In this document: positions 20,429 to 46,651 of the stretch, piece after piece
How the letters are laid out: each line of letters starts with the position of its first letter
How positions within the stretch are numbered: the stretch's first letter is position 1
The notes under the pieces: generated by a model
Database searches by the model: none
The model's input: the letters and a program-made list of their open reading frames with translations, nothing else
What the model was told of the DNA's origin: nothing
Source of the DNA: Bacteroidales bacterium
GTDB lineage: Bacteria; Bacteroidota; Bacteroidia; Bacteroidales; Marinilabiliaceae
Assembly (NCBI GenBank): GCA_024401355.1
Contig: JAKSLF010000010.1
Location: 24,548 to 88,547 of the forward strand
Reading direction: 5' to 3'
Length of the DNA: 64,000 nucleotides
Translations under genes and position numbers: made by a program

Positions 20429-20453
20429 TAATTTGAGTTTTAATTATATATAG

Positions 20454-21557: not shown

Positions 21558-21573
21558 TGACTATTTGATGAGA

Positions 21574-25470: not shown

Positions 25471-25532
25471 ATTCAAAATCTTAAAAAGACAAAAAATGCC
25501 GCACATATAAATGTACGGCATATATAATTATC

Positions 25533-25910: not shown

Positions 25911-26540
25911 TTATTCGATACGGAATGCAGCGTACTTCTGATATTCAACGATGAACGCCTTCTCGTAACCGAGCGACTTCATCTGCTGCTGCAAAGCCTC
26001 TACCTCACTACCCTTTACAGGAGGTGTTGTATAACGAAAAATCTTATCGTTGAGCCTGTACTCATATACATCATCAACCTTTTCAAAGAAAGTGAGATAT
26101 ACAGGGTATCTGAAAGCCGCAAGCTGAACTACATAATCCTTTGAAGGGTCGATAACCAACTTGCCACTCTTGGCGCTCTGAGCATACTCTGATTCAGTAA
26201 TTGAGAATCTCTTTGTATTAGTCACGAAAGCCTCAGCATATCCATTGTTTCTGATAGCAGCGAGCTGAGCATTGGCATCAGCGTATGTATTGAACTGACC
26301 GACACAATAACGTGCGTAACCATCAGTACAAGGATATTCATACACCTTGTCAAGATTCTTGAAGAAATTGGCATCTGAAGGTGCCTGCTTAAGAGCCAAA
26401 ACCTGAACAGTAAAGACACTTGAAGGTTCCTCAACTGTTACAATCTGCTTTTGAGTACGAAGCTCTGAAAGCTTATCCTGAGCAAATGATGCTACGCTTG
26501 TTGCGGCCAGAATTGCTATTGCTAATATCTTATTCATCAT
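25911..26540 (-). CDS. Exported protein with two SPOR-like repeats
   Basis: A 209-residue protein with a signal peptide (cleavage after VASFAQ). Two related segments of about 75 residues, FTVQVLALKQAPSDANFF to AFVTNT and YVVQLAAFRYPVYLTFF to AFIVEY, each have the beta-alpha-beta pattern of SPOR domains, which bind peptidoglycan stripped of stem peptides. It is the last protein gene of the series that begins with the giant adhesin, 34 bases behind the PorE-like gene. A role in tying the export or anchoring machine to the cell wall is a reasonable inference; no experiment is known to me. Confidence 0.72.
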   Translation of the reverse strand: MMNKILAIAILAATSVASFAQDKLSELRTQKQIVTVEEPSSVFTVQVLALKQAPSDANFFKNLDKVYEYPCTDGYARYCVGQFNTYADANAQLAAIRNNGYAEAFVTNTKRFSITESEYAQSAKSGKLVIDPSKDYVVQLAAFRYPVYLTFFEKVDDVYEYRLNDKIFRYTTPPVKGSEVEALQQQMKSLGYEKAFIVEYQKYAAFRIE

Positions 26541-26574
26541 CAGATCTAATTATTCATGAATAGTAGGGTTCACA

Positions 26575-28647
26575 TTAATGTCTAACATTCCATACGACAA
26601 CCTCGATACGACGGTTGGTCAAATGCTGTGACTTATCGCAGTAGATACCACGATGGCAACGGTTTTTGAGGTAACGTTCGCCATAGCCACGAGGTATAAG
26701 CTGGTCTTCATTGACACCCTTTGATACCAAGTATGACTTAGACTTATCTGCCATATTCTGGCTGACATTCAAATTACCATAACGATTACCCTTTGCCTCT
26801 GTGTGACCATTGAGCTTAACAACGATGTTAGGATTCTGGAGAAGATAAGCAGCGAGCTTGTCGAGAGTCTCCTTAGCCTTGTCATCAAGGTCATTTTCGT
26901 ATGGAATTTCCATACCAGAAATATCATCAAGAACAGCATCATTGAAAATAGGAGTAAGCTGGATTCCATCCTTACCCATAGATTCAAGTTCGCCTATTGT
27001 AGCAACAAGGTTTTTCTCGTTGTAACCCTCCTTTGAAACATTAACGCAGTAGTCTGCCTCGTTATTGACATTCTCGCCAGGGATAGTAACAGTAACCTTA
27101 CCATTTTTGTCAGTAACGCCTGTAGCAATCTTCTTGCCAGTAGCAGCATCAGTAATAGTAATAACAGCGCCTTCAATCTTAGTGCCGTTGAAAGTACTTA
27201 TAACAGTAGTGTTGAAAGTGAAAGGATCAGCCTTTTTCACATCAACAACAGGCGCAGGCTCTGGTTCTGGTTCTGTAACAGGTGCTGGAGCAGGAGTAGC
27301 AACAACAGGTTCTTCACCGAATACGAGCATCTCCTCGCCCATCATAGGAGCCATTTCCTCAACAGGTGCATCTACATGAACACGAGGACGAACAGTAAAG
27401 ATCTTATCTGCATAACCATCACCCATCTGGTTAGAAGAGACGAAACCGAAATTATCGATCTTAGGGTCCATCACATAGGAGAAGTCATCCTTGTTAGAGT
27501 TAAAAGGCTTCATCATATTACGAACATTCTGCCACTTACCATCAATCTGCTCGGCACAGAAAATATCGAGACCGCCGAAACCAGGATGACCCTTAGAAGA
27601 GAAGTAGAACTTACCGTCACGATTGACAACAGGATAAACCTCGTCTTCGTAAGTATTGATCTGCTTACCCATATTCTTAACCTTGCCGAAAGAGTTAGGA
27701 CCCTTGCGCTCGCAATAGTAGATATCCTTACCACCGAAACCACCATCCATATTAGAAACGAAGTAAAGAGTATTATTATCGAGAGACAAAGCAGGGTGTG
27801 CACAGTCATATTCGTTAGAGTTGATAGTCAACTCACGATCATTAACCCAGTCATTGCCGTCAAATTCCACTACGAAGATCTTCATTACATCATGATCGCC
27901 TACGACAACCGACTTGGTATAATACATATACTTAAAATCATTGGTGAAACAGATAGCACCAACGTGATAAGGAGAAGTCAAATTCTTAGAGAACAACTGA
28001 TAAGAATTATCCTTAACGAAACCATTGTCATCAACAGTAGAGCAGAAAAGATTCAAGAAGTCAGCACCATTCTTATCCTTCTTAGCTCCTTCAACAGCCG
28101 ATGAATATACGACCTTATCCTTATAGTACTGAATACCGAAAGACTGTGTAGCAGCCAACAACTCAGCACAAGGGTTAACCATGATAGACATATCCATTCG
28201 GTCGTTATTGGAAGCCCACTTACAATGCTCTATGAGGTCGTTTACTCGAAGAGTGTTGGCACCTTCCTGCTTAGAACGGTTATACCATACAATAGCTTCG
28301 TCATACAAACCCATCTGGTGGATTGTAGAAGCATAGAGGAAGACATCTTCACCTGTAAGATTATTTTCGATTTCGACGAAAGTTTCGAAAGCATGCTCGA
28401 CACTATTGATGTAGGAAAAGCTTCGAGCGAGCTTTTTAGCTTCATCAAGAGAAAGAGTTGCACCGAGATCGCGAGCCGCAACATAATTGTTGGACGCGTT
28501 GAAATAATCCTCGTCACTGTAATTGGAGTTAGCCTCCTTGAGAATCTTCTTGATCTTCTTCTGTACATCCTTAGGTAGCTGAGCAGAACTATCTACCGTC
28601 CACAACATAGGACATAGAAGTAAAACAAGTAAAGCAATGTATTTCAT
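26575..28647 (-). CDS. PorE-like T9SS protein: TPR, PD40 propeller, regulatory domain and OmpA domain
   Basis: A 690-residue exported protein. After the signal peptide (near VDSSAQ) come TPR-like helices (about 25-140), a PD40/WD40-type beta-propeller (about 180-420, with ALSLDNNTLYFVSN and FYFSSKGHPGFGGLDIF), a Pro/Glu/Ala-rich linker (about 425-470), a carboxypeptidase-like regulatory domain (about 475-555) and a C-terminal OmpA-like domain (about 575-690, ending in NRRIEVVVW). This is the order of Porphyromonas gingivalis PorE, a T9SS component that holds the apparatus to peptidoglycan. No lipobox is seen, unlike PorE. In the OmpA domain the usual HTD is HTE and the LSxxRA helix reads VSQNMADK, so wall binding may differ. 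It follows the PorP/SprF gene by 58 bases. Confidence 0.82.
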   Translation of the reverse strand: MKYIALLVLLLCPMLWTVDSSAQLPKDVQKKIKKILKEANSNYSDEDYFNASNNYVAARDLGATLSLDEAKKLARSFSYINSVEHAFETFVEIENNLTGEDVFLYASTIHQMGLYDEAIVWYNRSKQEGANTLRVNDLIEHCKWASNNDRMDMSIMVNPCAELLAATQSFGIQYYKDKVVYSSAVEGAKKDKNGADFLNLFCSTVDDNGFVKDNSYQLFSKNLTSPYHVGAICFTNDFKYMYYTKSVVVGDHDVMKIFVVEFDGNDWVNDRELTINSNEYDCAHPALSLDNNTLYFVSNMDGGFGGKDIYYCERKGPNSFGKVKNMGKQINTYEDEVYPVVNRDGKFYFSSKGHPGFGGLDIFCAEQIDGKWQNVRNMMKPFNSNKDDFSYVMDPKIDNFGFVSSNQMGDGYADKIFTVRPRVHVDAPVEEMAPMMGEEMLVFGEEPVVATPAPAPVTEPEPEPAPVVDVKKADPFTFNTTVISTFNGTKIEGAVITITDAATGKKIATGVTDKNGKVTVTIPGENVNNEADYCVNVSKEGYNEKNLVATIGELESMGKDGIQLTPIFNDAVLDDISGMEIPYENDLDDKAKETLDKLAAYLLQNPNIVVKLNGHTEAKGNRYGNLNVSQNMADKSKSYLVSKGVNEDQLIPRGYGERYLKNRCHRGIYCDKSQHLTNRRIEVVVWNVRH

Positions 28648-28705
28648 AGTGGATGAATAATTAATCGTATTGTCAGTTATAATCCTATCAAATTAAGTAA
28701 TAATA

Positions 28706-29722
28706 TTAGAAGTATCTGATTGAGCGCATACCAGGGCTCTTCTTAGGAGTGAAATCCATGAAGACACCAATTTCATGCGAACCAACAGTAGCATACTTTC
28801 TTATATCACTTATAGAGTAATCAAATGAGTATCTAACACCCCATGTTGAAGAACTCTTCTTATTTGACTTTTTAGAACCTATCTTACCAACCTGATATTC
28901 GGCAAGGATTACAGCTTCAGAGACAGTTCTGTAAGAGAAGCCGACCCAAAGTTCCTGATTCTTGATAGGCTTAACGCTACAAGAAATATCCATTGTAAGT
29001 GGAGCTCCAGGAATAACACGCGCAAGAGCAGTTGGTTTAATCTTTATATCATTGACGTCAAACACATAACCACCATAAACGTATGAATGAAGATCCTTGA
29101 AACTAACTGTATTCTTGATTTCCTGCTTATTGCTATTATACTTATTAGTAAAGAAGCGAGGAACGCTCAAACCAACAAAGTACTTAGCAGTATAGAGATA
29201 AGCACCGAAACCAGTATTGAAACCGAACTTAGAAACCTTTTCCTTAAGGAACAGAGGGTCATTCGGATGAGTAATTATAGCTTTAGTTCCATCATAAAGG
29301 ATATTCTTGAAACCGACTTGAAGACCAAGACGAAGATTAGTCTTGTTATTAAGTTTCAAACGATACGAACCTGCAGCGAAGAACTCAAAATTGTTAGTAA
29401 AACCGAGGTGGTCATTGGAAACAACCACGCCTACACCAACGTCCTTAAGCGCTTTAATGCTAGTTATAGGTCCATGAACGTTAACAGCACCAGTATAAGG
29501 CGCGCCCTTAAATCCGGTCCACTGTGAGCGGAACACTAACAATCCACTGATCGCATCTCGCGATCCAGAGTAGGCAGGATTGAGAATACCCTGGTTAGAG
29601 ATATAATGGTTGTATACGGCCTGGTCCTGAGCGCGGACCACCAAAGTGGTCACGCCCATAACAGCCAATATCACAATATATCTTACTAAATCTCTCATAT
29701 ATGTTATGCGTTTAATCGTCAT
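28706..29722 (-). CDS. PorP/SprF family T9SS outer-membrane protein
   Basis: A 338-residue outer-membrane barrel of the PorP/SprF family. The mature N-terminus QAVYNHYISNQGILNPAYSGSRD (recognised in its pieces YISN and NPAYSG) and the following FRSQWTGFKGAP are family hallmarks. In Flavobacterium johnsoniae SprF is needed to put the giant adhesin SprB, a type B T9SS cargo, on the surface, and sprF lies directly downstream of sprB. Here the gene begins 28 bases after the stop of a 5301-residue type B cargo, so the same partnership is very likely. The signal peptide is preceded by a short charged stretch (MTIKRITYMRD); a start 24 bases downstream at the second Met is also possible. Confidence 0.92.
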   Translation of the reverse strand: MTIKRITYMRDLVRYIVILAVMGVTTLVVRAQDQAVYNHYISNQGILNPAYSGSRDAISGLLVFRSQWTGFKGAPYTGAVNVHGPITSIKALKDVGVGVVVSNDHLGFTNNFEFFAAGSYRLKLNNKTNLRLGLQVGFKNILYDGTKAIITHPNDPLFLKEKVSKFGFNTGFGAYLYTAKYFVGLSVPRFFTNKYNSNKQEIKNTVSFKDLHSYVYGGYVFDVNDIKIKPTALARVIPGAPLTMDISCSVKPIKNQELWVGFSYRTVSEAVILAEYQVGKIGSKKSNKKSSSTWGVRYSFDYSISDIRKYATVGSHEIGVFMDFTPKKSPGMRSIRYF

Positions 29723-29750
29723 TACTCAGTTATCTTTACGTCTACCTCCA

Positions 29751-32700
29751 TTATCTTCTTAATTCAATATATCCATTAAGTTTCTTGGTCCTAACCTTAT
29801 TGTCAACATTGAAGTTGATAGTGAAGACGTAGAAGTAAGTACCCTGTGGTAACTGTTCACCAACAGTAAGCATATTAGATGTCTTAGAAGTACCATCCCA
29901 GTTTGGACAATCACGTCCATATCTTGAACCAGAAGATCTATATACCAATGTACCCCAACGGTTGAAAACTTCAAGGTATGAAGAATGGCATTCCTCGTAT
30001 GAAGGTGGAAGAGTTACAATAAACTCATCATTAAAACCATCACCATTAGGAGATATAGCATTCGGCATCAAGAATCCGACAGAATCGCCTGGTACAGTTT
30101 CGTTACCGCAAAGTATCGTAATATACGAGATATTTGAGTAGCGCAGATTTCTCATCTTTTCGTTGTATGCACGATAAGGAATCTTAATCTCACCATAGAA
30201 TGTATTAGAAGGTTTGCGATATACGAATAAACCAGTCTTACTTGAAGTGTGGAGATCAGTTGTACCGTCGAAATCATCAAAGCCCCAGTTACCCATTCCA
30301 TCGTAGATGTCACGCAGGCTCACATACTTGTAGTATACAGGCTTCCAATACTTGTAGATAGGATCCATTACATAGTACTGGTAACCGCCTATGCTTACAG
30401 AGTCAACCTTATAATTAGGGTTGTCAAAGTCCTCAGCAGTAAGTTTGTCAACCTTAATCTTAGTATTGTCATCGTATACCTTGAAGTATTCGTATCCAGT
30501 GCTTACATAAGTTGAGTCACAACCATCTTCGTACTTATCGAGAACTCTCTTAGAATAGAGAGTATCGACATTGCAACCCTTCACATAATTGTCGAATACT
30601 GTGATTGAATCACGGTCGGTATAGATGCCTTCACCAGGTTCGTCAACATATACCTTCTCGGCATTGTCGAGCCATTCGAATACGATGTTTGCATCCTTAG
30701 ACAAATTGCCACGCAATGAAGAGTAACCTGTTTCTGGACCGAACTTCTCTATGAACAAATCGCTTGTGACAGTAGAAGAACCATCCATTGCAGTTTCATA
30801 CTCTGGCAAATAAACCTTATCAATAGCCGTACTCCAATCGAGGAACTTGTGATTACCCTTATGGCCGTAACCAGGAATCAATGGCTGTGGATGTGAAGAG
30901 TCATCAGAATTCAAGTAGATGAATACATCGTATGTAGTAAGCTCCTCATCGATGAATGTCAAGTATCCAAGATCATTCTGACATTCTGTAGCATGAGTCA
31001 TATCGGTAACACGGATTGTGTAATCACCGATACCCATTACATTGACAGAATCAGCAGATACGGTTACACCATTTTCATCGGTAGTAGAAATAACCTTCTT
31101 AAGGTCGGATACAATAGGACCGAAGTAGAGTGTCTGACCCTCGTTTACATCGTCGATAGTCTGAAGAACGTAGTCCTCACCATTAGCAACCGAGAGATGG
31201 ACAAGTTCATACTTGTAACCCTTATGAGCATTCTCGAATACCACGAAGCCGTTATCGAGCAAGCCATATTCAGGGTTCTTAGTATCCTCAGCTATTACGT
31301 AAGAGCCATCAACAACATTACCAGCAGCGAAGTAAACGTTAGGAATTGAATCAACGTTAGTATCATTGTCGCTGAATGGAAGTGGGTTCTGAACAATCTC
31401 AACGATGTTAGAAGTAGCATCACATCCATCGTCAGTCTTAAGCGTTACGAAATAGAAGCCGTTAGTAGCATTCTTATTGTAAGTAGTGCCGTTGAATGAC
31501 CAACCGTTGAAGATAATTTCCGCAGCATGACTTGCACCGAAGTAGTCAGGGAGTTCCTGAACATCGACAAGGTCGAGAGAATCAACATTGATTTCAGAGA
31601 GATCAGTTACCTTCTCATAAGGATCAGTATACTTGAAGAGTCGGTAAGTAATGCCCTTATCAACATCCTTGAATGCGAGAGTCAAACCAGACTCGCCTTC
31701 GCAATACTCGTTGATATCCTCCTTAACGTAGAGTCTTTCACCAGGGAGTGTAGAATTCTTGACGTAGAGGGTTCTGCTTGCGATGCTGTCGTATGGACAA
31801 CCAGTTGCCATTACAGCACTCATCACAACTACAATAGTATCACCATTAGTGAAATTAGTAGGCTTATAGATGAATCCAGCGTTAACCTTGCTGAATGTGT
31901 CATCGACAACCTTAGTCTTAACAACACCATCCTCAGTGTACTGCTTGTAGAGCTTGAAGCCGTAGCTTGAGACAATTGAATTGTTAGTATCACCATAGAA
32001 CCATATTCTAGAAGAAGGACAGATTTCAACATTATCCTTATCCTCCTGATCACCGTTGAGAAGCATTATCATCTTAGTGTCAGGCAAGATAGAAGCTGTG
32101 AAGTCGACCTCAACAGAATTCATAGCGATCTTGCATCCCTCCTTATCAGCATAGAATGTGTAAGTAGCGACGTTGTTACCAGTAGCGATCCAGTAGATGC
32201 CATCCTCAGATACGATAGCCTCACCGAGCTGGTCGCTGAAGTACTTAGTACCATCGACTGGGTTAACCACTCTAATAGTAGTCTTGTCAGAGCAGCCAGA
32301 AGCGTCGGCTACCACAGTCTCACCCTCGAGAGATGGACGATAGAAGTTGACATGGCTGACAACCAAGTCGCAGACATCACTTGCACCACGAGCCCAGATA
32401 GTGTACTTACCAGTAGTTGTGAGAGTGAATGTTGGATGATCCTTAGTTGCGATAGCGTAAACAGCGCCATCTTCGGCAACAAGTTCGTATGTAACACCCT
32501 CAGTGAGCTTCGCAGACTCAGAAGCAACACTATTAAGGTCGATAACAACCTCGTTGCAGTCAGTCTGATCATCGAAGTCAGCAAGAACATTAATCACACC
32601 ATTAACCTCAACATTGAATGGTTCGGTAGCCATCTGAGAATTACCCTTGACAGCAGTGATAACCATGCTATGAACACCGAGTGGTTCAGTAATAGTCCAA

Positions 32701-35700
32701 GCAACCTCGCCAGAACCTGCAGTAATAGGCTCGAGAGTGATATCATTATCGGCACAAGCGATAGAGTACTTCCAACCAGCCTTAGGTTCAGTAACCTTGA
32801 CAATAGTACCAGCCTGACAGTCGATAACCACTTCCTTAGTGATGATAGCGACAGTAAGCTCAGTGAATGTCACAGGACCGTAGAGAGAAGAACATTCGCC
32901 GTTAGAAGCCTTAACATAGTAGTCACCGATGCCCTCACCTGGGTGAGCCTCAACGTCACCGTTGATAGGACCGAAGAATACCTTATAAACTGGAGCTGCA
33001 GGTTCAGCAGGAACTACAGGTTCTGCAGGCTCTTCACCCTCAGCAGGCTCCTCGGCAGGAATCTCAGGAACTACATAGAGTTCAGCATACTTAGTTTCGA
33101 GCTCGACACCCTTATGAACAAGAGTATAAGCGATACCAGGCTGAGCATTTTCAACAACTACCCTACCAGCAGGATCATCGACAGTACCAACAGTCTCGTT
33201 GACAGTAGAAGCGATAATCACGTTGTTTTCATCGACATCAGCGAAGTAGATATTACCATCGATGCTTATAGGGTTGATAACAACCTCGGTAGCGGCAACT
33301 TCACTAGGACAATCGCTACCAACCGCAGTTGCTACAGCTGATACAGTCACAACGCCCTCGACATCAGAGATATTGAGCTTGAATGTTGAAGAAGTAGAAT
33401 TCTGCTTTTCAACACCGTTGACGTAGAATGTATAGTTAACATCAGTAACATCACTAACAGCCTCGAATACTACCGAAGTAGACTTACAGATGTTAGGAGT
33501 AACAGTTCCAGTATAAGTCTTACCGTCGATATTAGTAGTCAACACGATAGAAGGCTTGGTCTTCTTCTCGAACTGAACAGAGATATTATCAATGTATTCT
33601 GAGCATCCATCAAGTTCAGCCTTGATAGCATAACCATCATTAGGCTCAGTAACCTTCCATGAGTAGTCAGAGATCTTAGTGTTAGCACCAAGGAATGTGT
33701 AAGTAGCCTCAGGAACGGTATTGCTGATAGAGATGATAGCCTCGCCGTTACCGTCACAATCGCTAGTAGCATCTATAGAGTAGATGACATCTGAGAGACC
33801 GTGGATATTGTAGCTAACCTCAGCAACCTTTTCAACACAGTCGTCAGTTGTAGCACGAACGATGTAAGTACCGAGAGTAATTATACGGAACGACTTATCA
33901 GCAGCAGAACCATCATAAACGAATGGCTTACCGACAGGCTTTTCAACATTATCAGTTCTCAACTTGTAGACATCGTAAGTAACACCATTTACAAGGCTAG
34001 ACGCCTTAATAATGAGGTTAGCAGCAATTTCAGGACAAGTTGGAGCAGTTATTACATTATCATCATCATCAGTGAGGTAAACATCAGCCATAGTGATAGC
34101 TGCAGTGCTTGTGGCAGATGCATCATTGTACATGAACTCACAAGAACCGTTACTAGCCTTGACAGAGAATACATGAGTGCCGACAATGTCAACAATCCAA
34201 ACACCATCAGAGTGGATGTATGAAGGCTCAGCCAAACCATCGATGTAGAGAGTGTAGTCGACACCAGACTCGATAGCCGAGAGGACTACAGTGACACTAC
34301 CAGCGCAACCGCCTTCAGCAGTCACCTCAGCATCAGCGAAAGTAGAGGACTTGAAGTCAGAAGGACGGATCACATCGATAACCTCTTCGCAGTTGCCGAG
34401 GTAAGCGATGAGCTTGCTAGTAACATCCTTAGAAACATTCCAAGTGATAGTGCTTCCGACAGCAGTGCCTTCAACACCGCTAAGTTTGTAAGTTACACCA
34501 TCCTGAGCATTATCGAGATTAACCTTAGCGGAACCGTCGCAATCAACAGTTGCAGAGACAACCACATCTTCAGTAGCAATAACAGTCTTCTGGAAGTTGA
34601 ATGAAGCAACATCGTTGAAGCATCCATTATTACGAGTAGCAATGATCTTGTAGTCGCCATCAGCATCGAGGAGGAACTGGAGAGGAACAATGCCATCAGT
34701 TACCTGTGCCTGAGAATCGGACTGTGGAGCCGAAGCAGAGGCGTCGACGAGATAGTAAGTAACATTACTTTCGATGTTAGCAGAAATCTTAAGAGTGTAA
34801 GCAGCCTCGCAAGACTTGATATCGGCAACAGAAAGAGCCTTAACCTTAGAGTAGTCGATAGTTTCAGCAAATACTATGAATGGTACGCAACCACTAGCAT
34901 TGCTTGCCTCAATCTTGTAGAGAGCCTTACCACCATTATTAATAGTCCAGCTAATAGCCTTTTCCTGAGCGACACCGTCTACATAGAGAGTGTAATCGAC
35001 ATCATCCTGAGGATCGGCAATAGAGAACTTAGTAATAGCATTCTCGCAGTCGTAGTCGACATCAACCTTAACATTATCAAATGTCTCGGAAACGAAGCTG
35101 TTGACAGCAAGAGTAGCAATATTGATATCGCAAGAACCAACAGTAGCATTCAAGAAGACAACCTCAGTAGGACGTTCAGAGAGGTTCCAAACGATAGGGC
35201 TACCAGTACCATTCTTCTTATTAGCACCATTGAGAGTGTAGACAACACCAGGCTGAGAGCCATCCATTGTGATAGTAACCTTACCATCGCAAGACTGCTC
35301 GGCAGCAACCTTGAAGTTAGTGTTAATCTTACGAGTATTGAAGAGAACAGCGTAAACCTCCATGAAGCATTCGTTGTTCAAAGTAGCATATACTGAGTAA
35401 GTACCAGTCTCCTTGAGAGTGAACTCGAGGTTAGAACCAGTATATCTGTGGAACTCGAGGCTACCAGTAGCAGGGTCAGCATTGCCCTTAACGAGGTAGT
35501 AAGTAGCGCCATAGAAGAGGTCCTCACCAAGGAGAACGAACTTACCGTCACCACTGTCATCGCAGTTAGTAACAGTTATCTGATCAACCATTACATCAGG
35601 CAATACAGTAGCTGAAGCCTGACCAATAACAGACTCACAAGCATCGACAGAACCGATAACAGTGAATGTCTCAGTACCACCAGTAGTTGGGATAGTCCAA

Positions 35701-38700: not shown

Positions 38701-41700
38701 TTGTAAACTCGGAATGAAACCACGAGGTCATCCTCGCAAGTGCCGACATAACCCTTGTAAGTAAGTTCGTACTCATTGTAGTCAGTACCATTCTCTATAT
38801 AAGAGATAGGCTGGCTAATGAGGAACTCACTACCATCGTAAGACTCAGGGAACTCAGTGAAGTCAGCACCATCGAGCTTAACAGCAAGAGTGTAGCGGCT
38901 TGCACCAGTAGCCTTGATGTTTATAGTCTCATCAGAACAGATCTTATTACCAGTATAACCAGTGAATGAGACGTAGATGCTATTGTCATCAGCATTAGTG
39001 AATTCGACAGCAGTCTTAGGTGCCTTCATAGTGCGGATCGTCACAGTACGAGAGCAATCGGCAGTAGAAGCCACGAGAATCTGATCCTTGTAATCCTCAG
39101 AGCCAAGAACCTGAGCATCGACAGTAGCTGAATTGTTACCAGCAGAAGCACCGTCGAGAGTAAGAGCGATATTGTCAGTAACATCGGCAGCAGCGAAGTT
39201 AACAGTAATATTATCACCCTCACAAATCATAAGGAGATTAGAATCGTCGATATCGACAGGACCTTCTGCAGTGCTGTAAGTAGCAGTAATCTTAGCATGA
39301 GGCTTAACAACAACCTCATTAGACTTATTATCACAGAAGCCATCGTTGACAGTCACATAGATAGTATGTGATTCAGGGTAAGCCGGAGAGTAAGTAACCG
39401 TAGTACCAGCGACCTCGAATCCTGCAACAGCAAGATCAGTTACATCAACACCGTCAAGGTTAAGAGTAAATGCTGCGTTAGAAACATTGAATACGAAGCT
39501 TTCACCGTCGCAAGGCTCATAGATATTTGCGCTTGTTGGAGTATGGCTTGTAGGAGTTATAGTAGCTTCTGGGAGTTCATGAACAGTTACATAGTAAGTG
39601 TAAGAATCGTTGCAGAAGCCATTAAGGTCGATAGCGAGAACCTCGATAGAATGGTCACCAGGCGTAGTGAAAGTAACTGGGAACGTATATTCTGAATCGC
39701 GGTTAGTCACATCAGCAGCAGCTGAAGCTACAGAACCAGCTTCGTCGCTAATGATAACATAGTTCATATCGACACCAACGATGCCGCCTACCTCAGCCTG
39801 AATAGCGCCAGAAGTAGTAACCTTAACATTGTAAGTCTGACCTACGCAGAAATCAGTATTATCATCATCAGTAGCGACATTATTGATAGCGATGTGGCTC
39901 ATTACAGGAGCGAGATCGTTAGTTTCTGAAACGCAACCCTCAACGCTAGTCACAACGAACTTGATGCTATAGTCTACATCATCCTTATACTTATACTGAG
40001 CAGTCTTAGAAGGAGTTTCGAGTACTACCTCTTCAACAAACTCGAAAGGATTGCCTTCCTTAGAAACCATCACCTGATAAGACTTAATATCGAGAGTAGT
40101 TGAAGCGATAGTATAAGGAACAATAGCATTCTCACAAACCTGAGAGTATGAAGAGAAATCAGCAGTAGGTTCGAAAGTAGCGAAGTAGTGAACCTGCTGA
40201 GTTTCTGAAGTGACAGAGCAAGAAGCGAGAGACAATACAGCGTAAACCTCAGTATTCTCTGCGAGACCCGTCATAGTGAAAGTATTAGAAGTCTGAACAC
40301 CCTGAGAAGCGCCATCGACGAAGAACTCCCACTTATCAGCATTAGCATCGGCAACGAAAGTAATTGCAGAACCGATACAAGCAGGACTTGTAGTAAGAGT
40401 CTTAGAAGGCGACTCAACAACAGTTACCGTCAGAACCTCAGCCTTCTTAGAGCAGCCGAATGGAGAGTGAGCAGTAACGGTAAGAGTGTAGACACCAAGA
40501 TCGAGAGTAGAAACAGATGCATAAGAGTAAGAATCACCTGCAGCAGACTTGCTGTCGACTACATTATCAGAAGCATCAGTGAGAACGTAGTCGTAAGTGA
40601 AGAGTGAAGCATCTTCATCAGTAGTGACAGAAGCGTTGACATTGAGAGCATCGCCGCTATCCTTACAGAACTTAGCCTCAGTAATATCGAGAGAAACCTC
40701 AAAATCGAATACATCAACATTGAAAGGCAGCTCATTGCCCTTACAGATCAACTTATCACCGATATACTCAACTGCATATACAGACCAGCTACCCTCAGCA
40801 GTGAGAGCAACAACTGGAGAATAAACATTAGTAGTAGTCTCGACAGGAGCGCCACCGTTGTATGACCAGTAATACTTATAAGTAGAACCGGCAACAGGGT
40901 TAGCGAGGTTAGCAGTAAGATTCATGTCACCAGCATCGACAAGGCAATAAGCGAGATTGTCGACCGAAGCAACAGTAGGAAGCTCGCGAACAGTAACAGT
41001 CTGAGTAAGCTGCTTGCCTACGCAGTAGTCATCTTCGTAGTCGAGAGTTACAATAATCTTCTTACCAGCAGCGAGAGCTGAAGCATCGTAAGAGAAGTCG
41101 TAAGTAGTAGTAGTAGCTACAGTAGAGCCATCGACAGTAGCAACCCAGCTATAAGACTTCATTGTCTTGTCAGCAGCTTCGAGAGCGACAGTACCACCGA
41201 GGCATACATAATCGTCACCGACAATCTCGGTAAGAGCATAATCGTTAACAACGAGAGTAACATGTACCTCAGTAGAGCATCCCTTAGCATTAGAAATAGT
41301 CACTGTGTAGTCGCCAGCATCTGAAAGCTCAGCGTGAGCCTTAGTCAACTTATTAGAAGTAGACTTAGATACACCGTCCTTAACCCACTCATAAGTATAA
41401 GTAGAAGCATCGAGATCGGTAGAAGTGATAGTAATATCGATAGCATTGTCGGTGCAGACAGTAGTATTGCCCTCTACAGCGACATTAGGCTTAGCATAGA
41501 CATTGAGTTCGAAAGACTCAGTCACGCTACAGCCAGTAGCGATATCATAAATATCGATATAATATTCAGTGTCGACCTCAGGAGTGAAAGTGAGAGGATT
41601 GTTAGTCCAAACCAAAGCTACAGGTCCTTCCTTCTTGTACCCCCAAGTGAGCAGAGGATCAGCAGCATCAGTAGTAGCCGAAATAGTGATATCGTCGCCT

Positions 41701-44700
41701 TCACAAACATTGCGATCAGCAGGAGCAATAGTATAAGAAGGAATCTTATTAGCTACATATTCGAACTCAATCTCGTCGGACTTACAAGAAGTAACAGTAT
41801 TGATAGCATAAACAGTCACCTTATTAGTGCCGACAGATGAAGAAGATATTTTAATAGAAGTATTGTCGAGGTTAGCATATTCATCTACAGACCAGTGATA
41901 CTGGAGATTCTCGCCAACGCTAGTAATTTCAAGAACAATCTCGTCATTCTGGCAGATAGTCTTATCGTAGAGAGTCTCGCTAATTTCTGGTGTAATATTG
42001 ATAGTCAATACTACAGGCGAAGAAGGATCAGACTCGCAACCAGTAGCATTAGTAGCGGTTACGTAGTAAGAGACAGTCTCAGAAGGAGTAACTGAAATAG
42101 AAGTGCCAGTACCGACAACAGAGTCGTCAGCTGAATTCTTCCAAGTATAAGTAAGACCTGTAAGAGGATCCTTGACATTAAGAGTTACGCCCAAAGCAGC
42201 ATCAGCACTACAGAGCGTAGAAGAAGGAGTCTCAATAACAGGAACAGCTGGATAAGCAATAACATTGACAGTTACTGGAGTTACATCAGACTCACAGTCA
42301 CCGAGCATAGACTTAACGTAGAACGTTGTTGGAACAGTAAGTACGTCAGTATTATAAGTAGCACCGGCAGAGCCATTACCCTCGAAGAGAGGAGTAGTAG
42401 CGCAAGCGGCATCAGAATACCACTTATAGATATAAGTAGACTTTGGAGAAGATATCTTCAAAGTAGTCTTCTCGCCAGCGCAAATATCCTTAGGAGCAGG
42501 AATTACTGGAGCGTCAGGCTTAGTGTTGACAACCACATTAACAGTAACGGCATCGGCAGGATCGTTGTAGTTACACTCGGCATTCTCAGCAGTAAGCTTG
42601 AAGACAGTAGGATTAGTCGTCCAAGTCTGAGTGATATCGAAGTTCACCTTACCAGCTACAACAGCCTTACGTTCACCACCTTCCAACGTGATATAAGAAG
42701 CGGTACCATCAGTAACCTCAACCTCGACAGTCACGGTAGTATTAGAGCCGTAGCAAACCTCAGTATTAGGAGTTGCAGTGAACTTAGGCTTATTATTTAC
42801 AGTGATAGTCTTATCAGCCTCAGACTTACAGCCGCTGTTCTTATCAGTAACAACGAGATGATAAGCGATAGTAGAGAGAGGCTTAGCAGTAACCTGAGCA
42901 ACATTAGACTTGTTAAGAGCAGTCTTAGGAGTCCAAGCGTAACTGTATCCTGTTCCAGTCAGTGAAGAAGAGAGGACTGTAGATTCACCTTCACAAATAG
43001 CATCCTTAGTGGCTGTGATAGTAAGAGGTTCAGGTGAGCTAACCTTCACATTTACAGAAGCCTTCTGAGTACAAGTAGTAGACTTATTCTTTACTGTGAC
43101 GTAGTAAGTGAGATCGCCAGTTGATGTAGGTTCGTAAGTGATAGACTTACCATTGCCAATAATAGCATTAGAAGCATCAGTCCAAACATATTCTGCATCA
43201 GCATCAGCCACATTAGAAGTAGCAGTCAACTTAACAGACATGCCCAAACAGATGTCGTTGTCGTTGACAGCGGCAGATACTGTTGGGAGTGGATTAACCT
43301 TCATCTTGAAAGTGAAAGTATTTTCGCAAGAAGGAGTTGTTGTAGTATTACCCTTTATCTCGAACTCGTACTCCTTTACCTCAGTAAGATCCTGCAGCGG
43401 GAAGTTAACAGTACAAACATCGCCAGAAACCGATGTAGTCGTACCACTTGGTGCGTTGCTAGAAACCACAGAATAAACAAGAGTATTATCAGAGAAAGTA
43501 AACGTACCCGACTCACCATCGCACGCCTCAGTAGGAGTGGCAGTGAACTCAGGAGTCTGCATAACAGTGACCTTACCAGTCATTGGCTTACCGAGAGCAC
43601 AATGCTTAGCATCAGTAGCAGAGACAGTTACATCATAAGTTGTAGTAGTTGTAATATCTGCAGTTGGAGTAAAGAGATAAGAACCAATATTAGAAGAAGA
43701 CGTAGTCTTTTCTGAGTAATCAGTACCACCCTCAGTCCAAGTCCAAGTAAACTCATAAGGAGCGACACCACCTGAAACAGTAGCATTGAGAGTAGCGCTA
43801 CCCTCTTCGCAGAGCGTCACATCAGGGAATGCAACGATATCGGGCTGAGTATTAACCTTAACATCGATCTTAGCCGGAGTCTTTGTAGTACAAGTGAACT
43901 TGTTAACAGCGGTAACGAAGTAAGACTTATCATTCTTACCTATAATAGTATTAGTAAGTCCGTCAGCAGAAGGAGTACCATCGTTAGAGCCAAACTCAGA
44001 ATTTTCATGCCATGCAATGACAACGCCGTAAGAGCTAAGATCCTGAGAAGAACTAACCTCAAGTTCGACTGACTCATCATAGCAAACCTCAACTGGAGTT
44101 TTAACAGCAGAAAGAATAGGACGTTCGTGAGTAGTAACCTCAACATCCTTAAAGATCTCACAGCCCTCGTTGCTAACAGTCAAGCGATAAGTACGCTTAC
44201 CACCATTGTAAGCGATCTCCTTATCACTCAAAGTAAGAGTATTAATAGGAGAAGCATTCAAAGAGCAGTCGACTCCGCTCCATGTATAAGTATAAGCAGA
44301 AGAAGAAGTACCAGAGACAGAAGCGGTTATATCAACAGTACCATCTTCGCAAGCTTCGAGACCATCAGGGAGAGTTATTTCAGCATCCTTTTCTATGGCA
44401 GTTACAGTAAACACTTCCTCGGACCAACAGTCAGCCTCTCCCCAGTTATATGTCATATCATGAGAAGCCAACTTATACTTGTAGGTCGTATTCTTTTTAT
44501 CCACAACGACCATCTTTCCAAGTTCGAAAGTAACATCAGATAGATCACCTGTGTAATCTATCTCCTCCCAATCACTTATCTCTTCATTCCATATATAAAG
44601 ATACGCCTCACCTTCAGTCAAGTAATCGGTATAACCATAAAACAACTTCTGGAAATCAGCAGTCAAAGTAACATACTCGCCATCACAGACTCTAAGCGCA

Positions 44701-45656
44701 TTAGAATTCACACCATTAAGCTTATAAGAGATATCGACCTTTGCATCGAACTGAACAACAATAGCCTCCAACGGAGAGCTACAAGGAGCAGAACCAAGTT
44801 CAACACCATCCTTATACACAACAAAGGTAGCAATAGGAGTAAACTTATATATATTAGTAGCAGTACCCTTAGCACCCAAGCCTTCAACATGAAGCGACTT
44901 ATCAAGACTATACTTAGGTTCTGTCGTATTCTTATTTTCATCTTCGAAAGTCCACGAGTAGCTTGCCTGGTAAGTATATCCATTGTATGTAGGTTCTGTA
45001 CCAAATGGATAATCCTCATTTAGCATCTGGACATCAAAAGCCTCGTCCTCGCAAAGAGTATACACATAACAGCCCTGTTCCTCACTATAATCAACACCGT
45101 TATACTCAGCAATAGGAGCCTTAAGCAAATCATAAACATAGACAAGAGTCATTCCAGAAGCGAACTTGACAGTCACTCTATTAGTCTTACCCTCACATCC
45201 CTGAGGAGCCTTATTCTGATTGACAGACAAACCCTGAAGACGGAATGTACTATAACCGAGTCGAGTACTAGAAGTACCGCCAGTATTACGCAAGTGGTAT
45301 TCAAGGTAATAACCATTGTTACAACCTATATATTTGGTACCACCAGTAGGATTGGACGCAGTCGTCATAGCTTTAGTAAGTTCCTCGATAGTAGTTGAAG
45401 TTCCATCGGACTCAAGTACTTCTATTTTGAGGCTAACAACTTGCCATGATGTAGCCGTACCATTTACGATACTAGCATAGACACCTTGATCTGTACCATT
45501 AGAAACGAAACCTTTATACTCTTTATCGTCGCCAGTAGCACAAATAGGCTCCAAAAACTTTGTTTCATAATAATCCTGTGCGCTAACGACAACAGATGAC
45601 ATTAGCGATAAAACACAAGCCACGCAGAGCGTGAATATTTTGAATCTATTACTCAT
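29751..45656 (-). CDS. Giant T9SS type B surface adhesin, SprB-like, 5301 residues
   Basis: A secreted protein of about 560 kDa. It has a signal peptide (cleavage after VVVSAQ), a unique head to about residue 300, and then on the order of fifty modules of 80-95 residues. Up to about residue 2400 these are Ig/PKD-like, opening with a Cys-x-Gly or Cys-Asp-Gly motif and carrying YxW core strands. From about 2400 to 4900 a second class prevails, built around YC.DE, then GVxYxL, then GxYxVxA. Between about 3180 and 4000 two subtypes, one with TYYLVKG and one with CDGxA, recur in turn. The end (about 5190-5301) is a CHU_C gliding-motility type B sorting domain: MPNAISPNGDGFND, NRWGTLVYRS, LPQGTYFYVF, GYIELRR. 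It heads the series with PorP/SprF, PorE-like and SPOR-like genes. Adhesion or surface-fibre function is inferred. Confidence 0.93.
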   Translation of the reverse strand: MSNRFKIFTLCVACVLSLMSSVVVSAQDYYETKFLEPICATGDDKEYKGFVSNGTDQGVYASIVNGTATSWQVVSLKIEVLESDGTSTTIEELTKAMTTASNPTGGTKYIGCNNGYYLEYHLRNTGGTSSTRLGYSTFRLQGLSVNQNKAPQGCEGKTNRVTVKFASGMTLVYVYDLLKAPIAEYNGVDYSEEQGCYVYTLCEDEAFDVQMLNEDYPFGTEPTYNGYTYQASYSWTFEDENKNTTEPKYSLDKSLHVEGLGAKGTATNIYKFTPIATFVVYKDGVELGSAPCSSPLEAIVVQFDAKVDISYKLNGVNSNALRVCDGEYVTLTADFQKLFYGYTDYLTEGEAYLYIWNEEISDWEEIDYTGDLSDVTFELGKMVVVDKKNTTYKYKLASHDMTYNWGEADCWSEEVFTVTAIEKDAEITLPDGLEACEDGTVDITASVSGTSSSAYTYTWSGVDCSLNASPINTLTLSDKEIAYNGGKRTYRLTVSNEGCEIFKDVEVTTHERPILSAVKTPVEVCYDESVELEVSSSQDLSSYGVVIAWHENSEFGSNDGTPSADGLTNTIIGKNDKSYFVTAVNKFTCTTKTPAKIDVKVNTQPDIVAFPDVTLCEEGSATLNATVSGGVAPYEFTWTWTEGGTDYSEKTTSSSNIGSYLFTPTADITTTTTYDVTVSATDAKHCALGKPMTGKVTVMQTPEFTATPTEACDGESGTFTFSDNTLVYSVVSSNAPSGTTTSVSGDVCTVNFPLQDLTEVKEYEFEIKGNTTTTPSCENTFTFKMKVNPLPTVSAAVNDNDICLGMSVKLTATSNVADADAEYVWTDASNAIIGNGKSITYEPTSTGDLTYYVTVKNKSTTCTQKASVNVKVSSPEPLTITATKDAICEGESTVLSSSLTGTGYSYAWTPKTALNKSNVAQVTAKPLSTIAYHLVVTDKNSGCKSEADKTITVNNKPKFTATPNTEVCYGSNTTVTVEVEVTDGTASYITLEGGERKAVVAGKVNFDITQTWTTNPTVFKLTAENAECNYNDPADAVTVNVVVNTKPDAPVIPAPKDICAGEKTTLKISSPKSTYIYKWYSDAACATTPLFEGNGSAGATYNTDVLTVPTTFYVKSMLGDCESDVTPVTVNVIAYPAVPVIETPSSTLCSADAALGVTLNVKDPLTGLTYTWKNSADDSVVGTGTSISVTPSETVSYYVTATNATGCESDPSSPVVLTINITPEISETLYDKTICQNDEIVLEITSVGENLQYHWSVDEYANLDNTSIKISSSSVGTNKVTVYAINTVTSCKSDEIEFEYVANKIPSYTIAPADRNVCEGDDITISATTDAADPLLTWGYKKEGPVALVWTNNPLTFTPEVDTEYYIDIYDIATGCSVTESFELNVYAKPNVAVEGNTTVCTDNAIDITITSTDLDASTYTYEWVKDGVSKSTSNKLTKAHAELSDAGDYTVTISNAKGCSTEVHVTLVVNDYALTEIVGDDYVCLGGTVALEAADKTMKSYSWVATVDGSTVATTTTYDFSYDASALAAGKKIIVTLDYEDDYCVGKQLTQTVTVRELPTVASVDNLAYCLVDAGDMNLTANLANPVAGSTYKYYWSYNGGAPVETTTNVYSPVVALTAEGSWSVYAVEYIGDKLICKGNELPFNVDVFDFEVSLDITEAKFCKDSGDALNVNASVTTDEDASLFTYDYVLTDASDNVVDSKSAAGDSYSYASVSTLDLGVYTLTVTAHSPFGCSKKAEVLTVTVVESPSKTLTTSPACIGSAITFVADANADKWEFFVDGASQGVQTSNTFTMTGLAENTEVYAVLSLASCSVTSETQQVHYFATFEPTADFSSYSQVCENAIVPYTIASTTLDIKSYQVMVSKEGNPFEFVEEVVLETPSKTAQYKYKDDVDYSIKFVVTSVEGCVSETNDLAPVMSHIAINNVATDDDNTDFCVGQTYNVKVTTSGAIQAEVGGIVGVDMNYVIISDEAGSVASAAADVTNRDSEYTFPVTFTTPGDHSIEVLAIDLNGFCNDSYTYYVTVHELPEATITPTSHTPTSANIYEPCDGESFVFNVSNAAFTLNLDGVDVTDLAVAGFEVAGTTVTYSPAYPESHTIYVTVNDGFCDNKSNEVVVKPHAKITATYSTAEGPVDIDDSNLLMICEGDNITVNFAAADVTDNIALTLDGASAGNNSATVDAQVLGSEDYKDQILVASTADCSRTVTIRTMKAPKTAVEFTNADDNSIYVSFTGYTGNKICSDETINIKATGASRYTLAVKLDGADFTEFPESYDGSEFLISQPISYIENGTDYNEYELTYKGYVGTCEDDLVVSFRVYKNPEVTITPSASLVIAGTSVALTATPGYESYEFFVDGVSQAVQSGSMADKNIFKYTVADADINVSVIATTYYNCTDEDNTTVKVLEGLVPSDVVVSNDYYCSNDEGVTVSVLTPQEGITYVLNECATCEPIVYDGSNEVAWNNIRVLTGETTSTYSVKSFHASLPDESIAMNNTVTVTEVHSPVQFQLTPDRTDNRCDAAALIELSSSEVGVMYQLYFNGVELGAPLAGTGSPLEFIVADQIGKYEVFAYSQFLDAGGNLVDACKIKMLGTYRIDVPLAAEFSLVDVNGNYCEDGDAIEIKLEGSEVGKVYKLLRDGVVVLDSESNEVAVDGTGSEISFGSYAVDGKYTVVCFFDGCNSPMAGEVNLKKWARPATQVVTLANYGHYCSDEKGGVVTVGSQEEGYLYTLYNGDEVVYDDSNVAYSYIGNATGDSFTWTDVPQGTYTIKITIPVVDSGCETVLDAFTLVKDEIPAEAVIRVTDANGVQDVEATICQDDYATINIYNTQAGVLYELLRDGALVDSRVDDTEIHSFNFENIGVGGLYSVRATVTYDLGDGKFTSCVTTFDETVKVTVVARPAGSATLDHEMPADKLAADPCYGEDVIVKDATPGFIYKIYRVEGSDEYPMNDYTFTAVGDPEADRFFNIKTNNGTFKVYVSNGSCEDPVGTVTLVNTKYVDPQTVIGDKSMCQGDEGLSVGLAGAEAGVTYRLYGPSLTTPEEHTATAAEVATGFFFNSLMIQEGVYYVTGANASGCEIKMYPEVDFKVYPLPVSFELNGNSAYCDEEGSVLSLSGSEIGVEYTLYSKAADDVLSPIETIIGTGKEIKFKPVKVGTYEASARNTVTKCTSSMLGEPVIIQRPAIDKLGIGIDPEKLIVRSCSEKTISLTDNLTADATYYLVKGSASPADGFVKSVLSDGISPVKFALVENGKYTIYGAYGDDYSCLTAYATIDFSMEPLATFPVEAEANCDGTASVILSDYEKGVDYFVQNHESITSSVVGGKLVWTIPTTGGTETFTVIGSVDACESVIGQASATVLPDVMVDQITVTNCDDSGDGKFVLLGEDLFYGATYYLVKGNADPATGSLEFHRYTGSNLEFTLKETGTYSVYATLNNECFMEVYAVLFNTRKINTNFKVAAEQSCDGKVTITMDGSQPGVVYTLNGANKKNGTGSPIVWNLSERPTEVVFLNATVGSCDINIATLAVNSFVSETFDNVKVDVDYDCENAITKFSIADPQDDVDYTLYVDGVAQEKAISWTINNGGKALYKIEASNASGCVPFIVFAETIDYSKVKALSVADIKSCEAAYTLKISANIESNVTYYLVDASASAPQSDSQAQVTDGIVPLQFLLDADGDYKIIATRNNGCFNDVASFNFQKTVIATEDVVVSATVDCDGSAKVNLDNAQDGVTYKLSGVEGTAVGSTITWNVSKDVTSKLIAYLGNCEEVIDVIRPSDFKSSTFADAEVTAEGGCAGSVTVVLSAIESGVDYTLYIDGLAEPSYIHSDGVWIVDIVGTHVFSVKASNGSCEFMYNDASATSTAAITMADVYLTDDDDNVITAPTCPEIAANLIIKASSLVNGVTYDVYKLRTDNVEKPVGKPFVYDGSAADKSFRIITLGTYIVRATTDDCVEKVAEVSYNIHGLSDVIYSIDATSDCDGNGEAIISISNTVPEATYTFLGANTKISDYSWKVTEPNDGYAIKAELDGCSEYIDNISVQFEKKTKPSIVLTTNIDGKTYTGTVTPNICKSTSVVFEAVSDVTDVNYTFYVNGVEKQNSTSSTFKLNISDVEGVVTVSAVATAVGSDCPSEVAATEVVINPISIDGNIYFADVDENNVIIASTVNETVGTVDDPAGRVVVENAQPGIAYTLVHKGVELETKYAELYVVPEIPAEEPAEGEEPAEPVVPAEPAAPVYKVFFGPINGDVEAHPGEGIGDYYVKASNGECSSLYGPVTFTELTVAIITKEVVIDCQAGTIVKVTEPKAGWKYSIACADNDITLEPITAGSGEVAWTITEPLGVHSMVITAVKGNSQMATEPFNVEVNGVINVLADFDDQTDCNEVVIDLNSVASESAKLTEGVTYELVAEDGAVYAIATKDHPTFTLTTTGKYTIWARGASDVCDLVVSHVNFYRPSLEGETVVADASGCSDKTTIRVVNPVDGTKYFSDQLGEAIVSEDGIYWIATGNNVATYTFYADKEGCKIAMNSVEVDFTASILPDTKMIMLLNGDQEDKDNVEICPSSRIWFYGDTNNSIVSSYGFKLYKQYTEDGVVKTKVVDDTFSKVNAGFIYKPTNFTNGDTIVVVMSAVMATGCPYDSIASRTLYVKNSTLPGERLYVKEDINEYCEGESGLTLAFKDVDKGITYRLFKYTDPYEKVTDLSEINVDSLDLVDVQELPDYFGASHAAEIIFNGWSFNGTTYNKNATNGFYFVTLKTDDGCDATSNIVEIVQNPLPFSDNDTNVDSIPNVYFAAGNVVDGSYVIAEDTKNPEYGLLDNGFVVFENAHKGYKYELVHLSVANGEDYVLQTIDDVNEGQTLYFGPIVSDLKKVISTTDENGVTVSADSVNVMGIGDYTIRVTDMTHATECQNDLGYLTFIDEELTTYDVFIYLNSDDSSHPQPLIPGYGHKGNHKFLDWSTAIDKVYLPEYETAMDGSSTVTSDLFIEKFGPETGYSSLRGNLSKDANIVFEWLDNAEKVYVDEPGEGIYTDRDSITVFDNYVKGCNVDTLYSKRVLDKYEDGCDSTYVSTGYEYFKVYDDNTKIKVDKLTAEDFDNPNYKVDSVSIGGYQYYVMDPIYKYWKPVYYKYVSLRDIYDGMGNWGFDDFDGTTDLHTSSKTGLFVYRKPSNTFYGEIKIPYRAYNEKMRNLRYSNISYITILCGNETVPGDSVGFLMPNAISPNGDGFNDEFIVTLPPSYEECHSSYLEVFNRWGTLVYRSSGSRYGRDCPNWDGTSKTSNMLTVGEQLPQGTYFYVFTINFNVDNKVRTKKLNGYIELRR

Positions 45657-45717: not shown

Positions 45718-45751
45718 CAAATTTAATAAAAAAGAAGAAGATATAACCAAA
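45718..45751 (-). promoter_or_regulatory. Predicted promoter of the giant adhesin operon
   Basis: On the minus strand TAAATTTG (45725-45718) matches TAnnTTTG and TTTG lies at 45751-45748, 22 bases further up. The leader before the ATG at 45656 would be about 55 bases and is very AT-rich. Confidence 0.65.
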
Positions 45752-45910: not shown

Positions 45911-46651
45911 ATGAAAAAAATATTTCTTACAATTGTTGCCATTTTAACCGTCAACGTAGCAATGATGGCTCAAGATAAAGGAAGATTGACACAACAATCA
46001 TATTATGAAGTGTCAAATGGCCAGAATGGAGAAGGATTCAACTACATTCAAATCAACGAGCTTCATTTTATAGAAGGAGACGAAGAACTAATAGTAGACG
46101 AGCAGTACGCAAAACTTCCTGGAAACCCAACACTGACATGTGTTGCAAGAATAATAGGAAATGGCTCAAAAGCGATATCAAGCAAACCAGAGGCTATAAA
46201 AACTGTCACAATCAATGCAGAAGAGATAGCTTCTATCAGTTCAAAAGCATTTGCCGGAATGACAAATACAACCTCATTCGAAATTGCAACTGCTACAGCT
46301 CCAGCGGTTGCGGAGGATGCATTTCCTTCTGGATGGGCAACTAGTTGCGAATTGACGGTTCCTGCAGAGGCATACGAGAGCTATTTGGCTGCGTGGGGCA
46401 AGTACTTCAAGAGCATTAACGGAGTAGATGTAGACCATACAGCTACGGCGATTGAAGAGGAAGAGGCAGGATTAATCACAGCCAAGGTTGTCGGCAAGAA
46501 GATTATGATAAGCGAAGAGGCACCCGTAACAGTATACTCAATTACAGGCAAGGTGGTGTTCATGGGCATAGCAGACGCAGTTGAGGTAAGCGGCAACGGC
46601 ATCTACATCGTAAAGACACCTAACACTACTTCAAAGGTTGTGATCAAGTAA
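45911..46651 (+). CDS. Small secreted protein with a BspA-like segment and T9SS type A sorting domain
   Basis: A 246-residue protein with a signal peptide (cleavage after AMMAQ). Residues about 95-165 resemble the last turn of BspA-type leucine-rich repeats (KAFAGMTNTTSFEIATATAP, then LTVPAEAYESYLAAWGKYFKSI, cited in part). The C-terminus from VTVYSITGKVVFMGIADAVEVSGNGIYIV to the terminal KVVIK reads as a T9SS type A sorting domain. It is divergent from the giant adhesin, with 254 bases between the two starts, and ends at a clear terminator. It may be a surface accessory of the same system, but only position supports that. There is no family assignment for residues 25-95. Confidence 0.78.
   Translation: MKKIFLTIVAILTVNVAMMAQDKGRLTQQSYYEVSNGQNGEGFNYIQINELHFIEGDEELIVDEQYAKLPGNPTLTCVARIIGNGSKAISSKPEAIKTVTINAEEIASISSKAFAGMTNTTSFEIATATAPAVAEDAFPSGWATSCELTVPAEAYESYLAAWGKYFKSINGVDVDHTATAIEEEEAGLITAKVVGKKIMISEEAPVTVYSITGKVVFMGIADAVEVSGNGIYIVKTPNTTSKVVIK

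Follow-up and report, generated by a model that had tools for sequence, protein, structure and literature searches.

A conserved type IX secretion unit with a SPOR protein in Marinilabiliaceae, predicted to hold a giant adhesin in place

In Porphyromonas gingivalis, the type B protein PG1035 is found together with PorP and the lipoprotein PorE, and type B proteins encoded beside a PorE-like neighbour have been proposed to be non-mobile (PMC9143113). P. gingivalis PorE binds a DAP residue through Asp576, Asn584, and Arg591, with the arginine forming a bidentate bond (PMC7192894). In Flavobacterium johnsoniae, Fjoh_3952, which shares an operon with a carrier and a PorE homologue, is seen only as static foci, which supports a PorE-like neighbour as the sign of a static adhesin (PMC12618676). 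SprB and Fjoh_4750, which have no PorE neighbour, are mobile, and Fjoh_1123, likewise without one, is mostly static and moves in 3% of cells (PMC12618676). The carrier SprF has a C-terminal Cys-Xaa-Cys tail bonded to GldK that is required to attach it to the gliding track and for sustained movement but not for export (PMC12635249). Cysteine-less SprF still made short contacts with the track, and P. gingivalis PorG carries a single cysteine (PMC12635249). Because SprF without cysteines contacts the track and Fjoh_1123 is mostly static, neither a PorE neighbour nor a tail cysteine is an absolute sign of behaviour. SPOR domains have a glycan site with a preferred Gln and a Phe four places on, and proteins with such domains are often active where the cell divides (PMC6895207).

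The window analysed here is a stretch of 64,000 nucleotides from contig JAKSLF010000010.1 of assembly GCA_024401355.1. Four of its open reading frames, all on the minus strand, encode an adhesin, a carrier, a PorE-like protein, and a SPOR protein, separated by 28, 58, and 34 bases as an earlier, sequence-only reading had described them (Table 1). The closest described system is Fjoh_3952-3951-3950, which has the same first three genes in the same order (type B gene, carrier, and directly after it the PorE-like gene) and whose adhesin is static, as is predicted here (PMC12618676). Beyond those three genes, the window unit has an added tandem SPOR gene, an OmpA domain without the arginine, and conservation throughout a family, features in which it may differ from the Fjoh locus. 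With PG1035-PorP-PorE the unit shares the predicted arrangement of a type B protein bound to PorP, itself bound to PorE (PMC9143113). PG1035, however, is small, about 50 kDa by blot, whereas the window cargo has 5301 residues and its genes form one unit; the host also has better PorE-like genes elsewhere and a separate PorP beside a GldK-like gene. With SprB-SprF the locus shares a giant type B adhesin gene followed by a carrier gene, but its carrier lacks the Cys-Xaa-Cys tail and PorE-like and SPOR genes adjoin it (PMC12635249, PMC12618676). The SPOR domains of RlpA, FtsN, and a sporulation amidase (PMC6895207; 1x60) share with the window protein the SPOR match and, in its second half, the Gln with an aromatic residue four places on; here the SPOR protein is instead a free-standing tandem within an adhesin unit, with no enzyme domain found and a weak sequence likeness (E 0.05).

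Gene content, conserved order, and core T9SS genes support the earlier proposal of one dedicated unit that makes, exports, and anchors a giant surface fibre. The reading we regard as probable is that of a giant adhesin kept static, served by a dedicated carrier, and joined to the wall through a PorE-like adaptor and a SPOR tether. Sec would take the adhesin across the inner membrane and the shared T9SS would take it across the outer one, as its signals suggest and as is shown for other type B proteins. By analogy with PG1035-PorP, SprB-SprF, and Fjoh_3952-3951, the adjacent PorP/SprF carrier would catch the type B signal and hold the adhesin on the surface. The periplasmic side of the carrier would meet the PorE-like protein, which in turn would meet the tandem SPOR protein. 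That protein is predicted to make the chief contact with the wall, by binding glycan strands that lack stem peptides. The fibre would then give fixed attachment, plausibly to plant particles, although this choice of target is tentative.

Table 1. Features of the adhesin locus, with positions numbered along the window
Feature	Position	Strand	Basis
Giant type B T9SS adhesin gene, 5301 aa	29751..45656	-	Translation, Ig_7, CHU_C
Type B C-terminal signal (final 100 adhesin residues)	29754..30053	-	CHU_C, 75.8 bits
PorP/SprF-family outer-membrane carrier, 338 aa, Cys-free C-tail ending RSIRYF	28706..29722	-	Profile matches
PorE-like paralogue, 690 aa, with PD40 propeller, CRD-like and OmpA-like domains	26575..28647	-	Profile matches, alignment
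Tandem SPOR protein of 209 aa with a signal peptide (by eye) and glycan-site Gln46, Gln139, Phe143	25911..26540	-	SPOR match, alignment
Promoter-like motif TTTG-N22-TAAATTTG, 61 bases ahead of the adhesin ATG	45718..45751	-	Match to Bacteroidota-type consensus
Terminator-like hairpin and T run, about 390 bases past the SPOR gene, where an FKBP ORF starts	25496..25521	-	

The adhesin locus and its host

The adhesin carries a CHU_C domain at its very C-terminus (cut-off 27 bits), which bears out the description of the 15.9-kb gene as coding for a type B T9SS cargo. A separate profile scan gave 70.2 bits for CHU_C and placed Ig_7 in seven stretches of the N-terminal half, and a Sec signal peptide is recognized by eye. 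The protein contains 113 cysteines, with 46 pairs spaced 22-40 residues apart; 1000 random placements gave 19.8 such pairs on average and never more than 30. This spacing fits a chain of roughly 50 disulfide-bonded Ig-like domains. The fibre may be of the order of 200 nm long, and a length of about 200 nm is given for SprB (PMC12635249).

The internal repeats are judged to be old, and they are about 24-46% identical among the matches listed. Complete adhesins longer than 2000 residues (n = 37, including that of the window) range from 2147 to 5301 residues with a median of 3115; three short adhesin frames (L094, L100, and L144) are excluded from this range, and the adhesin of L138 may also be split. 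Within the genus (7 to 14 sequences), mean identity is 59.7% for the SPOR protein, 56.6% for the PorE-like protein, 63.6% for the carrier, and 64.4% for the type B signal. For the body of the adhesin it is lower, at 39.1% over the 590 residues that precede the signal and 27.8% over the N-terminal 600 residues. The launcher and anchor thus appear to be kept while the exposed fibre changes fast.

The motif at 45751-45718 matches a Bacteroidota-type promoter consensus. Such patterns occur five times in the window against 1.31 expected, and 1 of 100 shuffles reached five. What had been called one clear promoter is retained as a plausible candidate. The terminator-like hairpin is weak, with four such hairpins found in the region and 2.8 expected. 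Upstream of the adhesin gene lies a divergent gene for a 246-residue protein (window 45911-46651) without a Pfam match.

The host is a gut bacterium with a 2.9-Mb assembly of 69 contigs, 85% complete. Among named sequences, the one closest to the PorE-like protein, at 73% identity, lies on contig CAJONN010000024.1 of the uncultured Marinilabiliaceae bacterium isolate Reindeer_2_mag_9. A Prevotella-like host, as first supposed, is rejected; there is no sign of Prevotella, and a related genome of the same genus matches the reindeer MAG deposited as Marinilabiliaceae. On host contig C12, genes for PorP, a GldK-like protein (FGE-sulfatase fold), GldL, GldM, and GldN are clustered; GldM/PorM is split there into frames of 401 and 109 residues (L018:5622-7181), possibly through an error of MAG assembly. 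A GldJ-like protein scores 429.9 bits, under the cut-off of 458.2 that 32 of 41 family genomes exceed, and 14 type A signals are found, seven of them over cut-off. SprA had no match in the 85%-complete assembly (TIGR04189, PF14349). Because 39 of the 41 sampled family genomes have SprA, including all four other sampled members of the genus, an assembly gap is likelier than a true absence. The check for core T9SS genes thus turned out well for porP and gldK-N, yielded GldJ only as a match under cut-off, and left SprA missing from the assembly. The earlier word "self-contained" is too strong for the unit, as secretion still depends on the shared T9SS.

Other possible T9SS cargo is present in the host. 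Frames of 2609 to 3364 residues on contigs C67 and C6 (L005-L007) carry type A signals and are perhaps further giant cargo. A second type B locus on contig C5 (L019:8217-12437) encodes a CHU_C protein, a PorP/SprF carrier of 307 residues, and a PD40-PKD protein without an OmpA match, and similar trios recur in other family genomes. An orphan type B CHU_C protein of 396 residues on contig C8 (L020:4069-5259) has no adjacent carrier, and its neighbour resembles RelA/SpoT by eye. Within the window, GH127 and GH10-esterase enzymes (13545-15932 and 16301-18523) point to plant cell-wall feeding, fitting a host that feeds on plant fibre, and a TonB receptor with DUF5074 and DUF4465 proteins (19460-24752) is perhaps an uptake locus.

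The PorE-like and SPOR proteins at the wall

Of the architecture TPR-PD40-CRD-OmpA originally assigned to the PorE-like protein, the OmpA part (50.9 bits, cut-off 27.2) and the PD40 part (26.5, cut-off 20.9) hold, whereas CarboxypepD_reg stays at 22.7, under its cut-off of 32.3, and no TPR match appears at E values up to 0.1. Its score for PorE (NF052230) is 241.6 bits, or 191.6 in the genome scan, against a curated cut-off of 600, and two genes elsewhere in the host are better PorE-like matches at 472.7 and 329.6 bits versus 191.6. By a simple pattern, a lipobox-like motif is absent from the window protein and from 58 of 59 unit proteins, and is present in one. The protein is, as judged from its sequence, a dedicated and altered PorE paralogue. 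The top PorE-like matches of four family genomes (L258, which is the best of the host, L260, L263, and L265) have no OmpA-like domain in the fetched stretch. Core PorE may lack a wall domain in genomes of the family.

By spacing and alignment, the window protein has Glu, Asn, and Met at the positions equivalent to Asp576, Asn584, and Arg591 of P. gingivalis PorE. The arginine is absent from all 59 unit proteins, replaced by Met (28), Ile (15), Val (13), or Ala (3). The asparagine is kept in every one, and the aspartate position is Asp in 22 and Glu in 37. All 23 of the further OmpA-like domains taken from PorE-like proteins of family genomes, the host contributing one, have the arginine; this control set covered 27 loci, of which four, the best PorE match of the host among them, showed no such domain in the fetched stretch. 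An initial control set of 18 stretches, which included other families, had Arg in 17 and a gap in one. Anchoring by the unit is supported, but wall binding by the PorE-like protein itself, as the sequence-only reading had it, is doubtful, since the arginine that contacts DAP is gone from its OmpA domain.

The SPOR protein of the window matches PF05036 at 23.1 bits (cut-off 21), and all 19 members scanned match the SPOR model at E values up to 0.01. Its two halves are 27% identical to each other, and it resembles solved SPOR domains only weakly (1x60, E 0.05). All 64 sequences have both Gln46 and Gln139. An aromatic residue, Phe or Tyr, occupies position 143 in 63 of them; the corresponding position of the first half, 50, is Leu in 58. 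The loss of the OmpA arginine together with a glycan-site Gln in both SPOR halves suggests that wall binding has passed from OmpA to SPOR.

The best 30 SPOR loci of the order sample include four of the family's unit and 26 from other families. In 15 of these 26, SPOR and a PorE-like propeller share one frame; in six, a PorE-like ORF lies beside the SPOR gene; and in five, neither arrangement is in view. Single proteins from other Bacteroidales families (L085:5499-9050 and L087:4388-7297) have PD40, OmpA, and SPOR over Pfam cut-offs and TPR under. As the four aligned SPOR fusions (L085-L088) keep the OmpA arginine, the comparison suggests that two wall contacts came first and that the OmpA contact was later lost in the family.

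The OmpA domain could instead still be wall-bound through a changed pocket, with SPOR doing something else, for instance marking the wall or clearing it so that the fibre can pass. The OmpA-like sequence is retained, with a PAL as its top solved match (1.4e-9), and the pocket may bind the wall in another way, given the Asn found in 59/59 and the Asp or Glu at the aspartate position. This alternative is nevertheless rather unlikely, since a residue whose bidentate bond holds DAP (PMC7192894) is replaced throughout the unit and kept in the other domains of the family. A still less probable possibility is that the OmpA domain is off the wall and serves only as a carrier-SPOR adaptor, while SPOR places the fibre through septum-enriched denuded glycan, and hence at new poles, as a holdfast at the division site or the poles that every division would renew. 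A wall tether formed by the SPOR protein acting with the PorE-like protein is the reading towards which we lean, by a modest degree.

Conservation of the unit in the family

At 1e-8, the SPOR protein has matches in 65 of 71 family genomes, in 51 of the 52 of good quality, and in 18 of the 21 genera of the family. The gene is full-length in 64 of the 71; the match in G343 is only partial and lies within a longer frame. Of the 295 genomes sampled from the order, 129 have a match at 1e-3 and only six have one at 1e-15 or better, four of these belonging to the Marinilabiliaceae family, and in the phylum sample only the genome of the window, out of 395, matches at 1e-12.

Sixty-three loci were compared, from 62 of the 63 other genomes with a full-length SPOR gene (G315 was left out). 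The PorE-like gene adjoins the SPOR gene in all 63, five of which end at a contig edge inside the PorE-like gene. The carrier gene is next to the PorE-like gene in 58 of the 58 loci that reach it, with an extra PD40 gene between in L098, and a type B gene is next to the carrier gene in 57 of the 57 that extend to it. Gene order is kept in 63/63 as far as the contigs run, and the intergenic gaps are mostly short. The unit is conserved family-wide and is near-universal in the sampled family; the locus is not a product of chance, because the same genes recur in the same order.

Outside the family, L083:10315-14105 has carrier, PorE-like, and SPOR genes in order with no type B gene in view, and upstream, on the opposite strand, genes that by eye resemble those for an ECF sigma factor and an anti-sigma factor. 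This one occurrence favours, to a degree, a reading in which the PorE-like and SPOR proteins serve envelope integrity or division and merely lie beside an adhesin-carrier pair, as do the frequent presence of SPOR proteins at the division site (PMC6895207) and a score for the outer-membrane integrity family NF053607 of 246.6 bits, compared with 241.6 for NF052230, both far under cut-offs. Mere adjacency is very unlikely, however, given an order kept over 62 genomes, matches across so many genera, mostly short gaps, and the single complex of type B, carrier, and PorE proteins in P. gingivalis (PMC9143113).

Among the papers listed by a literature search, judged by title or abstract start and with most subscription journals outside its scope, none reports the four-gene unit, and the one paper listed for SPOR domains together with type IX secretion concerns a type 2 system. 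The SPOR gene, the loss of the DAP-binding arginine, and the fixation across the family are apparently undescribed, while the trio of type B, carrier, and PorE-like genes is of a known kind.

Carrier tails and a predicted fixed adhesin

The PorP/SprF identity given earlier to the second gene is secure, with 204 bits for PorP_SprF (PF11751, cut-off 22.3) and 201 for TIGR03519 (cut-off 90.55). The Cys-Xaa-Cys motif is absent from the C-tail of the window carrier and from the last 30 residues of all 59 unit carriers; any cysteine in those residues occurs in only one of the 59 (L153), single and by sequence in a barrel strand. Without a tail cysteine, the carrier could not form the disulfide by which SprF is joined to the GldK track, and so is probably not driven. 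The name SprB-SprF-like, proposed for the locus, consequently does not suit carriers without this tail beside a PorE-like gene in every locus compared. The ending RSIRYF is found in 51 of 58 unit carriers. It was considered as a specific dock for PorE and dropped, as similar endings occur on second carriers without a PorE-like neighbour (L201, L206, L230, L236, and L239).

A contrast set of 67 other carriers was drawn from 12 family genomes and that of the window; it holds part of the carriers of each genome, L252 repeats L239, four of the 67 are unassigned to a class, and L249 and L250 are counted beyond the 67. A cysteine lies in the last 45 residues of 2 of 13 core carriers beside GldK, of 1 of 19 type B carriers with an adjacent PorE-like gene (L249, 33 places from the end), and of 26 of 33 type B carriers without such a neighbour, the other seven having none. 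Before L249 and L250 joined the set, 0/18 versus 25/32 gave a Fisher p of 5e-8, a value that ignores kinship. Kinship could explain the link, because on a tree of 80 rows (63 of the 67 other carriers and 17 of 58 unit carriers) one of the two traits, PorE neighbour and tail cysteine, needs only two changes and the other three, and a sign test is without power; a phylogenetic proof that the two exclude each other was attempted on this tree and abandoned for that reason. The exact Cys-Xaa-Cys of SprF is absent from the last 32 residues of all 67 other carriers, where the common form is a single Pro-Cys. A single tail cysteine may do the job of the SprF pair, by analogy with PorG.

In eight tandem loci (L201, L206, L212, L224, L230, L236, L239, and L245), a type B gene and a Cys-tailed carrier are followed by a second carrier. 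These second carriers are mostly Cys-free and often end in SIRYF or a similar sequence; in most cases they are preceded by a short type B gene, about 150-330 residues in length.

A gliding unit like SprB-SprF, in which the carrier rides a GldJ/GldK track and the fibre propels the cell, would suit the SprB-like giant size, the shared carrier family, and the GldJ-like, GldK-like, GldL, GldM, and GldN proteins of the host, but it is highly improbable given the tails of the 59 unit carriers and the better gliding candidates in the same genus, L195 and L197, in which the tail contains a cysteine and no PorE-like gene is seen alongside. Gliding by other adhesins of the host, which has a GldJ-like protein, may occur. 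For the window locus, a static dedicated adhesin unit is very probable.

The division of one family's carriers into classes by tail cysteine and PorE-like neighbour makes the question of a moving or fixed T9SS adhesin testable from sequence. The conserved loss of a known peptidoglycan contact leads to a clear biochemical prediction, and the SPOR protein is a likely wall-binding addition to type B anchoring. Since nearly all sampled members of the family carry the unit, it may be one of their core ways of attaching.
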